From Lacinutrix sp. WUR7 (lineage in GTDB: Bacteria; Bacteroidota; Bacteroidia; Flavobacteriales; Flavobacteriaceae), in the NCBI RefSeq assembly GCF_016864015.1, contig NZ_CP045067.1:1151001-1215000 (forward strand): 64,000 nt of DNA. The letters run 5' to 3'. Both the position numbers and the translations under genes were made by a program. Within the stretch, counting starts at the first letter, position 1; each line of letters opens with the position of its first letter. Shown here piece by piece: positions 7,816 to 10,893 of this stretch. Below the pieces are notes generated by a model, which searched no databases, was not told where the DNA came from, and saw only the letters and a program-made list of their open reading frames with translations.

Positions 7816-9714
7816 ATGAGCGATGCTTTAAAACACGAATGTGGAATTGCACACATTAGACTTTTAAAACCATTAGAGTTTTACAAAGAGAAATATGGTA
7901 CTGCATTTTACGGCGTAAACAAAATGTATCTTTTAATGGAAAAGCAACACAATCGTGGTCAAGATGGTGCTGGTTTTGCAAGTATTAAACTAGACACTAA
8001 ACCAGGAGAACGTTATATAAGCAGGGTTCGCTCTATTGCGCAGCAACCTATTCAAGATATCTTTGCTCAAATAAACGGTAGAATAAACAAAGAACTTACA
8101 GAGCACCCAGAATACCAAGATAACGTTGCTTTACAAAAAAAGAACATCCCTTATATAGGAGAAGTGCTTTTAGGTCATGTTCGTTATGGTACTTTTGGTA
8201 AAAACAGCGTAGAAAGTGTACATCCTTTTTTAAGACAAAATAACTGGATGCACAGAAATCTTATTCTAGCTGGAAACTTTAATATGACAAATGTTAAAGA
8301 GCTATTTAAAAACTTAATAGATTTAGGACAACATCCAAAAGAGTACACAGACACCATTACTATAATGGAAAAAATTGGACACTTTTTAGATGATGCTGTT
8401 TCTAAAATATACAAAAAGCTTAAAAAAGAAGGATACAATAAAAACGAATGCTCCCCTTTAATTGCAGATCGATTAAACGTTGCAAAAATTTTAAGAAAAG
8501 CTGCAAAAAACTGGGATGGTGGTTATGCAATGGCTGGACTTTTAGGTCATGGAGACTCTTTTGTACTTCGTGATCCTGCAGGAATAAGACCAACCTATTA
8601 TTACCAAGATGATGAAGTTGTAGTAGTAGCTTCAGAAAGACCAGTAATACAAACAGTATTTAATGTAGACTTTGATGACGTTAAAGAATTAGAGCCTGGT
8701 CATGCTATCATTACAAAAAAATCTGGAGAAGTTTCTATTCAACAAATATTAGAACCTTTAGAAAGAAAAGCTTGTTCTTTTGAACGTATCTATTTCTCTA
8801 GAGGAAGTGATGCTGAAATTTATCAAGAGCGTAAAGAACTTGGTAAATTATTAATGCCTAAAGTTTTAGAGGCAATTGATAATGACACGGAAAACTCTGT
8901 TTTCTCCTACATTCCAAATACTGCAGAAACTTCATTTTTCGGAATGATAGAAGCTGTTGAAGAACATCTTAATCAAAAGAAAACACAAGCTATTTTAGAT
9001 GGTGATGGAAAGCTTTCAAAAGAACGTGTTATTGAAATCTTATCGGAAAGAACAAGAATTGAAAAAATAGCAATTAAAGATGTTAAGCTAAGAACTTTTA
9101 TTACTGAAGATAGTAGTAGAGACGATTTAGTTGCGCACGTTTACGATGTTACTTACGGTGTAATTAAACCAACAGATAACCTGGTTATTATTGATGATAG
9201 TATTGTAAGAGGTACCACTCTAAAAAAGAGTATCATTAAAATGATGGATCGACTACATCCTAAAAAAATAGTCGTGGTTTCTTCTGCACCGCAAATACGT
9301 TACCCGGATTGCTACGGTATTGACATGGCAAAAATTGAAGGATTAATAGCCTTTAAAGCAATGCTTTCGCTTTTAAAAGACAACAACAAGTATCATTTAA
9401 TTGAAGAAGTATACAAAAAATGTAAAAAGCAGGTAGATTTAGAAGATGCGGAAGTAAAAAACTTTGTAAAAGAATTATATGATCTTTTTACAGCGGATGA
9501 ACTTTCAGATAAAATCTCAGAATTATTAAGTGATGAAACAGTAAATGCCGAAGTAAAGATAATATTTCAACCGGTATCTAATTTACATAAAGCCTGTCCT
9601 AAAAACCTAGGAGACTGGTATTTTACAGGGAATTATCCAACCGCAGGAGGGAATAGAGTTGTAAATAAAGCGTTTATTAATTTTTATGAAGGAAATGAAG
9701 AACGCGCTTACTAG
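7816..9714 (+). CDS. purF: Amidophosphoribosyltransferase, long form
   Basis: First committed enzyme of purine synthesis: PRPP plus glutamine to phosphoribosylamine. The chain starts MSDALKHECGIAHI, so an 8-residue propeptide would be removed to expose Cys9 as the N-terminal nucleophile of the Ntn glutaminase domain. HNRGQDGAGFA and GHVRYGTFG follow. The C-terminal phosphoribosyltransferase domain has the PRPP loop VIIDDSIVRGTT near residue 456. At 632 residues it is clearly longer than the ~500 of E. coli; extra segments lie in the middle and at the C-terminus, as I would expect for Bacteroidetes homologues. Single-gene unit after the terminator at 7700. Confidence 0.94.
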   Translation: MSDALKHECGIAHIRLLKPLEFYKEKYGTAFYGVNKMYLLMEKQHNRGQDGAGFASIKLDTKPGERYISRVRSIAQQPIQDIFAQINGRINKELTEHPEYQDNVALQKKNIPYIGEVLLGHVRYGTFGKNSVESVHPFLRQNNWMHRNLILAGNFNMTNVKELFKNLIDLGQHPKEYTDTITIMEKIGHFLDDAVSKIYKKLKKEGYNKNECSPLIADRLNVAKILRKAAKNWDGGYAMAGLLGHGDSFVLRDPAGIRPTYYYQDDEVVVVASERPVIQTVFNVDFDDVKELEPGHAIITKKSGEVSIQQILEPLERKACSFERIYFSRGSDAEIYQERKELGKLLMPKVLEAIDNDTENSVFSYIPNTAETSFFGMIEAVEEHLNQKKTQAILDGDGKLSKERVIEILSERTRIEKIAIKDVKLRTFITEDSSRDDLVAHVYDVTYGVIKPTDNLVIIDDSIVRGTTLKKSIIKMMDRLHPKKIVVVSSAPQIRYPDCYGIDMAKIEGLIAFKAMLSLLKDNNKYHLIEEVYKKCKKQVDLEDAEVKNFVKELYDLFTADELSDKISELLSDETVNAEVKIIFQPVSNLHKACPKNLGDWYFTGNYPTAGGNRVVNKAFINFYEGNEERAY

Positions 9715-9828
9715 CTTTTTTCTTACGGTTTTTCCGTATCTATTTAGTTTTGAAGCGCTTAATCCTAAAAAAAAGCGGTTCATCTAAAAGATTTCACTAA
9801 TTCCAAGAAATAAAACTACATTAGTACC

Positions 9829-9899
9829 ACCATAACATAAGTAGGTTAAGTTCATGGTAGATTTGGGGCAAAAAAGGTGAACTCTCGTTCACCTTTTTT
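9829..9899 (+). ncRNA. Candidate small RNA, copy 1 of 3
   Basis: A ~71-nt unit starting ACCATAACATAAGTAGG and ending in a perfect terminator hairpin, AAAAAAGGTGAAC/GTTCACCTTTTTT with loop TCTC. Ten to twelve bases upstream is TACATTAG (9817-9824), one mismatch from TAnnTTTG, so transcription would begin at about the conserved ACCATAAC. ACCAT (start) can pair with ATGGT further in. The similarity to copy 2 extends 32 bases past the terminator. Plus-strand orientation is inferred from the -7 element. Confidence 0.7.
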
Positions 9900-10015
9900 C
9901 ATTTTCTATAACGAAATTTTTTTCAACATTTCCTTCTAAAACAGACTCTTTAACCCTTTAGGCTAATATATTAGTAGTTTATCTAATAAGTTTTATAATT
10001 TGGCCTAAGCACGCT

Positions 10016-10023
10016 TATATTTG
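10016..10023 (+). promoter_or_regulatory. -7 promoter element TATATTTG of small-RNA copy 2
   Basis: Exact TAnnTTTG match ending 4 bases before the conserved ACCATAAC start of the repeated unit. The corresponding positions of copies 1 and 3 read TACATTAG and TATACATA. Confidence 0.6.
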
Positions 10024-10027
10024 CTAG

Positions 10028-10099
10028 ACCATAACATAAGTAGGTTAAGTTTATGGTAGATTTGGGGCAAAAAAGGTGAACTCTCGTTCACCTTTTTTC
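10028..10099 (+). ncRNA. Candidate small RNA, copy 2 of 3
   Basis: Almost identical to copy 1; the only internal change is GTTCATGG to GTTTATGG, which lengthens the possible 5' stem to ACCATAA/TTATGGT. Same terminator hairpin with TCTC loop. It has the best promoter of the three. The 3' flank (CATTTTCTATAACG...) up to about 10130 is shared with copy 1, so the two arose by duplication of a ~200-base unit. Confidence 0.72.
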
Positions 10100-10168
10100 A
10101 TTTTCTATAACGAAATTTTTTTCAACATTTTATAATATTCAATATACTTTCACGTTATACATATATCT

Positions 10169-10240
10169 CCATAACATAAGTAGGTTAAGTTCATGGTAGA
10201 TTTGGGACGAAAAAAGGTGAACGCAAGTTCACCTTTTTTT
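10169..10240 (+). ncRNA. Candidate small RNA, copy 3 of 3
   Basis: The 5' part (CCATAACATAAGTAGG to ATGGTAGATTTGGG) is the same as in copies 1 and 2. The linker is changed (GGGGCAAAAAAGG to GGGACGAAAAAAGG, one base longer) and the terminator loop is GCAA instead of TCTC, while both stem arms are kept. This pattern of conserved stems and drifting loops supports an RNA function and breaks the short frame ATGGTAGATTTGGGG seen in copies 1 and 2. The -7 element is unclear here. Confidence 0.65.
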
Positions 10241-10284
10241 ATATCTACCTATTACATATAGGCACTTGTTATTTTTTTTAAAGC

Positions 10285-10893
10285 TTACTTCGCTTCTGCA
10301 TAACGTCTTTCAACTTCATTCCAGTTAATTACATTAAAGAAAGATTCAATATAATCTGGTCTTCTGTTTTGGTACTTTAAGTAATAAGCATGCTCCCAAA
10401 CATCTAATCCTAAAATTGGTGTTCCTTGACAAGTAACTCCTGGCATTAATGGGTTATCTTGATTTGGAGTAGAACAAACTTCTACTTTTCCTCCTTTATG
10501 CACACATAACCAAGCCCAACCTGAACCAAATTGTGTTGCTGCTGCTTTACTAAAAGTATCTTTAAAAGCATCTACAGAACCATAAGCAGCTTCAATAGCA
10601 TCTTTTAAATCTCCAGACAAACGTCCTTTTCCTTCTGGGTTCATTACTTCCCAGAATAAAGAGTGGTTATAAAAACCTCCTCCGTTATTTCTAACAGCTG
10701 CATTTTTCATATCTAGATTACCAAGAATATCTTCAATAGATTTCCCGTCTAAATCTGTTCCTTCAATAGCTGCATTTAATTTTGTTGTATAACCTTGATG
10801 ATGTTTTGTATAATGAATCTCCATTGTGCGCGCATCAATGTTTGGTTCTAAAGCATCATAAGCATATTTTAATTTCGGTAATTCGAAAGCCAT
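10285..10893 (-). CDS. sodB: Superoxide dismutase (Fe/Mn type)
   Basis: Converts superoxide to hydrogen peroxide and oxygen in the cytoplasm. The 202 residues hold the four metal ligands His27, His77, Asp164 and His168 ([11 protein letters not shown]). Whether iron, manganese or either is used cannot be decided by eye. There is no signal peptide. A -7 element lies at 10930-10937. The gene runs against the plus-strand small-RNA cluster, so the two converge. Confidence 0.96.

Follow-up and report, generated by a model that had tools for sequence, protein, structure and literature searches.

The window, a stretch of 64,000 nucleotides of Lacinutrix sp. WUR7 corresponding to bases 1151001–1215000 of a single-contig 3.99-Mb genome, carries three tandem copies of a 72-base unit between two genes. 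The upstream gene is one that we take to be purF, and Pfam gives only GATase_6/GATase_7 for its product; the downstream gene is a convergent sodA. The features are as follows, with scores for the unit model (R1) and the promoter model (R2).

7816..9714, + strand: purF, amidophosphoribosyltransferase-like, the upstream syntenic gene, outside the RNA (name presumed; Pfam GATase_6/GATase_7 only)
9755..9829, + strand: promoter region of unit 1 (R2, 40.8 bits)
9758-9768 and 9778-9787, + strand: direct repeats before unit 1, CTTAATCCTAA and GTTCATCTAA
9817-9824, + strand: −7-like box of unit 1, TACATTAG
9829..9900, + strand: putative sRNA unit 1 (R1, 101.7 bits)
9829-9858, + strand: 5′ hairpin of unit 1
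9837..9849, + strand: loop half of the candidate pairing site in unit 1, AUAAGUAGGUUAA, nearly invariant in the family
9858..9869, + strand: linker half of the candidate pairing site in unit 1, UAGAUUUGGGGC, nearly invariant in the family
9859-9869, + strand: linker of unit 1
9870-9899, + strand: terminator stem-loop of unit 1
9955..10024, + strand: promoter region of unit 2 (R2, 44.2 bits)
9957-9966 and 9977-9986, + strand: direct repeats before unit 2, TTTAGGCTAA and GTTTATCTAA
10016-10023, + strand: −7 box of unit 2, TATATTTG
10028..10099, + strand: putative sRNA unit 2 (R1, 102 bits)
10168..10240, + strand: putative sRNA unit 3, terminator loop and linker altered, core kept (R1, 86.2 bits)
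10285..10893, − strand: sodA, Fe/Mn superoxide dismutase, the convergent syntenic gene (Pfam)

The three tandem copies had been proposed in an earlier sequence-only reading, and they do lie in register, with starts at 9829, 10028 and 10168 (spacings of 199 and 140). Over 103 nt, the identity between copies 1 and 2 is 99%, and, as that reading had described, the two share an exact 3′ flank of 32 bases; copy 3 is 63% identical over the same 103 nt, with GCAA for TCTC and GGGACGA for GGGGCA and, again as described, both stem arms kept. Each unit ends in a perfect 13-bp stem (13–14 bp in folds) followed by TTTTTT, so the Rho-independent terminators assigned to all three copies are borne out. In the fold, a 5′ hairpin (CCAUAAC/GUU(Y)AUGG) with a 13-nt loop, which itself contains a 3-bp inner stem, is followed by an unpaired linker of 11–12 nt and the terminator. 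The fold z-scores range from −4.0 to −4.5, and for each unit none of 200 shuffles was as stable. Moreover, no reading frame survives the single-base indels seen in core and linker, for example GGTA(A)GATTT; the units are therefore non-coding, and a conserved peptide, which the reading had already dismissed, is ruled out. A whole-genome search found no further unit beyond these three in the own genome, and its fourth row is the reverse strand of the palindromic terminator of copy 3.

To place the units among relatives, genomes of the genus, family and order were searched. Units are present in all seven genomes of the genus, including the own genome, and R1 matches 244 of 299 sampled genomes of the family (E ≤ 0.001), or 237 by a count of the listing once seven matches weaker than 1e-9 are dropped; R1 was built from 22 chosen units of equal layout and favours that layout. 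In the order sample, 48 of the 246 genomes searched match: 32 are strong matches in the same family, and 16 are weak matches (30–43 bits) in other families, which we read, uninspected, as terminators rather than units. Eight same-family genomes in that sample gave no R1 match. An exact 18-base scan of named genomes returned at least 118 stretches, and the titles of the matches listed are all from Bacteroidota, mostly Flavobacteriaceae, save one labelled Candidatus Rokubacteria. In this sequence (L067, OMJU01000030.1) the unit again has purF and sodA as neighbours, and we take the contig to be a flavobacterial one that was mis-binned.

The address of the arrays is largely fixed. Among the 118 arrays of the matches listed, a purF or sodA homologue adjoins 110 (PurF in 98, SodA in 87), and the copy number ranges from one to five, with one copy in 49 arrays, two in 57 and more in 12. 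The eight arrays without either neighbour include L051, which starts near the edge of its stretch, as well as L029, L035, L041, L110 and L131; because the genomes of these five hold another array at purF (L104, L144, L130 and L069), they are dispersed copies. In one further genome (G021), a divergent unit (L469) has lost the loop sequence and keeps the stem ends, the linker AGATTTGGGG and the terminator.

Within the units, the near-invariant letters are those of the loop, AGTAGGTTA (AGUAGGUUA), and of the linker, ATTTGGGG (AUUUGGGG), and the 40-nt core is better conserved than the terminator. Conservation taken from the exact-pattern scan is biased towards the core; the variant tally rests on the R1 matches, where the main variants are CATTAG for CATAAG and CCATAGC for CCATAAC; the former occurs in genus g128, probably Flavobacterium. 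In the 22-unit alignment, both partners have changed at 6 of 21 pairs, and each of these six belongs to the terminator. In an alignment fitted to R1 of 122 matches from 57 further loci (89 distinct sequences), this number rises to 12 of 21, and none of 500 shuffles was as high; 11 of the 12 are in the terminator and only one of the eight hairpin pairs is among them. The 5′ hairpin is paired in 98.7% of the cells of these 89 sequences, again as fitted to the model; two of its pairs never vary and four vary on one side only, and its pairing is thus little tested because it varies so little. The earlier claim of a conserved RNA structure therefore holds for the terminator, which covaries in other genomes. 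It does not hold on the ground originally given, since the unchanged arms of copy 3 are no covariation, and the stem-arm test it had suggested says little about the 5′ hairpin.

The promoter-like matches that the reading placed at the same position before copies 1 and 2 were recovered as TACATTAG and TATATTTG. Across relatives, this −7 box lies at −13 to −6 before 205 units of the matches listed and is followed by CCATAAC; in 204–205 of these units, T at −13 and A at −12 reach 89% each, T at −9 98% and T at −8 92%, and the G reaches 72% (205 units). Further upstream, direct repeats around TTTNRTCTAA lie at about −72 and −52, and paired 10-mers with a 20/21-bp spacing (at least 8/10) occur in 122 of 202 upstreams of the matches listed versus 50 of 4040 single-base shuffles, with the motif derived from the same upstreams that were scored. 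The stricter exact box precedes only 58 of 205 listed units. The direct repeats are present before copies 1 and 2 and absent before copy 3, which scores 2.8 bits (E 9.7) against R2. Accordingly, separate transcription of each copy, as proposed earlier, is favoured by the boxes before copies 1 and 2 and before most units elsewhere, whereas a promoter of copy 3 is doubtful.

Alternatively, the units might have no regulatory role and be mere repeats with terminators, or the 3′ ends of transcripts that read through from purF. Most listed arrays indeed start 60–231 nt downstream of purF, and some genomes have their last unit some 20–25 nt before the convergent sodA stop (11–16 nt beyond the fixed 80-nt unit end). 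Yet such repeats would not account for a core that is better conserved than the terminator, for the −7 box and repeats that precede most units, or for the 8 of 118 listed arrays without either neighbour, four such genomes holding another array at purF. We regard this explanation as highly improbable. Collectively, the distribution together with the predicted promoters and terminators supports the earlier suggestion that the units are a multicopy regulatory RNA.

Rfam 15 gave no match in their region at gathering scores, in agreement with the suggestion that the family was undescribed. At E values up to 10, 36 sub-threshold matches appeared there, many over the A/T-rich palindromic terminators. 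Flavo-1 (RF01705; gathering score 42) has no match in 9715-10284 at E up to 10. Three copies of Flavo-1 lie elsewhere in the 64-kb window and are unrelated to the units by eye:

715-792: Flavo-1 (RF01705), 52.4 bits
45872-45943: Flavo-1 (RF01705), 58.9 bits
54503-54624: Flavo-1 (RF01705), 42.1 bits

Kinship with Flavo-1 was thus rejected. Paralogous, near-identical sRNAs that pair at translation initiation regions of sets of targets are familiar from Qrr and OmrA/OmrB, which are gammaproteobacterial and Hfq-dependent; their seeds are shorter than the about 20 letters in two blocks of the units. The closest counterpart in Bacteroidota is FopS (RF04319), whose best sub-threshold matches reach 20.8 bits at 10184-10243 and 17.5 bits at 9845-9903 against a gathering score of 56. 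According to excerpts of its description, FopS is a paralogous sRNA family of Bacteroides that represses translation of SusC near the start codon (PMC11697453). Like the units, it consists of multicopy near-identical short sRNAs with their own promoters and Rho-independent terminators, and both pair near the start codon of surface-protein mRNAs, by computation in the case of the units. In contrast, the same excerpts give FopS a single-stranded 5′ stretch followed by a terminator, dispersed copies and SusC-like transporters as targets, whereas the units have a 5′ hairpin in all three folds and a two-part seed, lie mostly in tandem at one conserved locus and have a CAP lipoprotein as candidate target (PMC11697453). 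Another flavobacterial trans-acting sRNA, Rfp18 of F. psychrophilum, is conserved beyond the species and acts on protease mRNAs; in the part of the report consulted it is predicted to pair through a third stem-loop, and since the unit has two, the RNAs are set apart by description (PMC9723704). The same F. psychrophilum atlas reports 85 new RNAs (PMC9723704), and by description another Rfp RNA may be this family in that species. A search of the open-licence PMC literature found no such RNA. We rate the units as a new family of predicted base-pairing sRNAs, whose two-part seed is unusual and whose candidate target is family-wide.

To look for partners of the seed, we searched with R3, which models the reverse complement of the sRNA core by sequence alone. 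The own genome yielded ten non-self matches at E ≤ 10, all weak (best E 0.017); two of them fall, respectively, within a gene and within a hairpin resembling a terminator (L305 and L308), and the own CAP gene is absent from the matches at this threshold. Over 31 genomes at E < 0.02, 15 sRNA-bearing genomes gave 13 non-self matches versus none in 16 genomes without the sRNA, 12 of which belong to other families. As nine of the 13 represent one orthologous microprotein locus, there are at most five independent loci, two of which, in G013, are alike. Some matches end at start codons, as TTAACCTACTTATG or close relatives (L302, L304, L342, L349 and L357), and the genes behind them look by eye as if they encode secreted or membrane proteins; further matches fall within genes or at terminators. 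In ten g128 genomes, two of the 12 non-self matches read are CAP leaders (E 0.56 and 0.99) and six lie inside genes, and in G015 a CAP-related gene (L349) is matched with E 0.017. Two further kinds of site were observed. A short transcript-like stretch at G000:C1:2727263-2727279 (L309) carries AACCTACTTAATGTTA and CGCCCCAAGTCTAAC and then a terminator, and is possibly a dedicated sponge RNA for the sRNA. At G000:C1:2815039-2815060 (L306) and L351, in two genomes of the genus, CCCCAAATCTAC sites lie directly before a terminator.

The microprotein locus includes the best R3 match of the own genome (1355150), which lies 42 bases downstream of an R2 match at 1355059-1355108, and the transcript there can encode the microprotein MNTDLFFLKLFKKVKNTFKFIGSLLYLTKKVFML, for which Pfam gave no match in the own copy. 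The locus is found at E < 0.02 in nine genomes, the own included, and has one to three sites by eye. A protein of 34–41 residues is encoded in nine of ten copies, with L355 frame-shifted; the locus was therefore rejected as a pure sponge and is better taken as a target that may also titrate the sRNA. In the copies (G000:C1:1355059-1355290, L300; L339–L341, L343, L344, L346, L347, L350), the leader carries the boxes and one to three sRNA-complementary sites, the protein ends in TKKxxML, and in several an ABC-transporter ATPase gene adjoins.

Next to the microprotein, the predominant candidate target is the CAP-domain (PF00188) lipoprotein. Its proteins were collected by protein similarity, not by leader, from 120 family genomes (83 matched), and the 52 leaders read comprise 30 fetched loci, 20 further genes and two own genes; L415 repeats L349, so that leader is not independent. 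Leaders of 77 neighbouring mechanical ORFs of at least 100 residues served as controls. In unit 1, the loop half is complementary to TTAACCTACTTATG-like start regions and the linker half to CCCAAATCTA in the leaders, whose common form is CCAAATCTAAAtttACCTACTT-ATG. The mean duplex energy of the 30 CAP leaders, one from an sRNA-less genome, is −24.1 kcal/mol versus −14.6 for the 77 controls (p = 2.8e-12) and −14.2 for shuffled leaders. The linker complement occurs in 32 of 43 leaders from sRNA-bearing genomes, 1 of 9 from sRNA-less genomes and 2 of 77 controls, and the loop complement in 27 of 43, 1 of 9 and 10 of 77, respectively. Both sites are found together in 21 of 43 leaders, or 26 of 43 when codons 1–11 (to +33) are included, and in either case in none of the nine sRNA-less leaders and none of the 77 controls. 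The sRNA-less set comprises three genomes (G009, G053 and G125), two with four leaders each, and G009 is 80% complete. G021 is counted as sRNA-bearing, though the single unit in that genome retains the linker and no longer has the loop. When genomes are compared, the difference has p = 0.008, and 6 of 41 bearing genomes do not exceed the best sRNA-less genome. The median start of the linker site is −23 and that of the loop site, which reaches the ATG, is −11; in several CAP genes, the loop site instead falls in the first codons. In the own genome, the leader is CCCAAATCTAAAGAACCTTAACC-ATG followed by AAACCTACTTTATGG in codons 3–6, with a duplex energy of −26.0 kcal/mol, below all 77 controls, and a second CAP paralogue (L420) has no site, codons 1–11 included. 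Collectively, a conserved two-part seed is complementary to conserved targets encoded elsewhere. The loop had been put forward earlier as the target-pairing region; it is indeed complementary to CAP starts and forms only one half of the seed, the linker AGAUUUGGGG having been missed.

In cofolds with the leaders L391 and L402, which allow nested structures only, ACCUACUUAUG is bound by the loop and the upstream block by the linker, the terminator stays intact and the 5′ hairpin is opened; a loop–loop form that keeps the 5′ hairpin may be an alternative. With the own CAP leader, the linker pairs likewise and the second block adopts another register, in which the hairpin arm pairs with CCATGAA and AGGUU with early codons. 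The three leaders examined have almost no structure of their own (0.0 to −3.9 kcal/mol). The evidence for matching changes on both partners is thin: in g128, where the sRNA carries CATTAG, CTACTAA occurs in the CAP leader L385 and not in L387, so a compensatory change is anecdotal. The four leaders with CCCCAAATTT occur in genomes whose sRNA has AGATTTGGGG; covariation of the linker site with the sRNA was not found in G018, G069, G079 and G084.

The family, its synteny, the promoter boxes, the terminator covariation, and the complementarity with its lack in three sRNA-less genomes are computed results. If the RNAs bound a protein, such as a regulator or RNA chaperone, with the copies as a sponge and the leader complementarity secondary, a near-invariant core in one to five tandem copies (matches listed) and a linker unpaired in the fold would also be expected. 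This would leave unexplained the sites at CAP starts, their lack in sRNA-less genomes and the 13 versus 0 complement matches. Moreover, every unit has its own terminator, unlike CsrB-type arrays; protein binding as the main function is therefore unlikely. Less probable still is that the likeness of leader and sRNA has another origin, for instance descent from the opposite strand of a CAP or microprotein leader, with no pairing. In one genome, the leader is near full-length antisense to the sRNA (GCCCCACATCTACTTTGAATTTAATCTACTAACATTATG, L385), as such descent would predict, but selection is needed to preserve complementarity across many genera in two blocks whose spacing varies.

We therefore favour, with a probability of about 0.76, a trans-acting sRNA of ~70 nt whose bipartite seed would block translation initiation of surface-protein mRNAs, and which probably switches CAP-type lipoprotein mRNAs off by pairing. 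Each unit would be transcribed independently; the 5′ hairpin would present the loop AUAAGUAGGUUAA, the linker UAGAUUUGGGGC would follow and the Rho-independent terminator would end the RNA. Loop and linker together would form the seed, pairing with short leaders that read CCCAAATCTA, then a few bases and (TTA)ACCTACTT-ATG; alternatively, the second half would fall directly within the first codons. The targets would be surface-protein mRNAs, above all those of the CAP-domain lipoprotein and the 34–41-residue microprotein; pairing would block ribosome entry, and several copies would raise the sRNA dose. We infer transcription, duplex formation in the cell and repression rather than activation, the last because of the site position at the start codon and the weakly structured leaders; the likeness to FopS would argue in the same direction. 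The opposite direction, in which the RNA pairs with the leaders and activates or stabilises the mRNAs, gains something from a precedent, since excerpts report that deletion of Rfp18 lowered two protease mRNAs in F. psychrophilum (PMC9723704), and direction is not readable from sequence. Pairing that covers or abuts the start codon argues against it, and there would be little for activation to open, because the three leaders are almost unstructured. We consider activation improbable, slightly less so than protein binding.

Whether the sRNA belongs to a larger circuit was approached through R2, a sequence-only promoter model of 45 rows that include copies 1 and 2 of the window. In the own genome both sRNA promoters rank first, and the next seven matches (E 5.7e-5, 1.9e-4, 0.019, 0.022, 0.035, 0.042 and 0.054) are all intergenic and precede the microprotein transcript, a TPR histidine kinase and proteins that by eye are predicted to be exported or at the surface; from E 0.088 onward, several lie inside genes. 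Among 20 matches from relatives, three are sRNA arrays and four lack a fitting gene; the remainder, named by eye, precede adhesins, T9SS-type proteins and others, including a NarL-type regulator, a TPR kinase and a receiver protein. R2 also matches one sRNA-less family genome and one genome of another family (G009 and G306). Giant HYR-like adhesin genes (by eye; L295, L296 and L227) in three genomes of the genus carry the common promoter elements TTTAACGATTAAATTC and TATATTTTTG. Upstream of CAP genes, a TTTNRTCGA box occurs in 28 of 29 cases (the sRNA-bearing genomes among the 30) versus 1 of 66 controls and 15 of 1450 shuffles. For 19 promoter-picked genes (six own and 13 from relatives, some orthologous), the pairing energy is −18.0 versus −14.6 kcal/mol (p = 0.0085), a modest shift. 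We take the sRNA direct repeats to resemble YpdB and DegU sites. A LytTR regulator was tried and rejected: the genome has 15 LytTR matches, yet R2 is weak near them (best E 0.017 in 49 kb). A shared regulator is a guess, because the CAP box TTTNRTCGA resembles, and does not equal, the sRNA box TTTNRTCTAA, and the part of the scheme in which we infer a common regulator with feed-forward control is weaker than the base-pairing part.

In its fullest form, the scheme would be a Flavobacteriaceae-wide regulon in which related TTTCRTC boxes precede both the multicopy sRNA and genes for surface proteins (the CAP lipoprotein, giant adhesins, T9SS cargo and the conserved microprotein). Their short leaders, largely antisense to the sRNA, would close an incoherent feed-forward loop through the loop-plus-linker seed, and the microprotein mRNA, with its one to three sites, would double as an sRNA sponge. 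Taken jointly, regulon, loop and sponge form a tentative proposal that we consider rather doubtful as a whole.

Flavobacteriaceae are marine polysaccharide degraders and include fish pathogens, and their post-transcriptional control is little mapped. According to excerpts of one report, ribosomes of the group fail to recognise Shine-Dalgarno sequences (PMC9976891). The units present a single RNA, shared by most of the family's sampled genomes, with a largely fixed address and a precise predicted pairing site on a conserved candidate target. They would make a new Rfam family and offer an entry to the control of the cell surface in Flavobacteriaceae.
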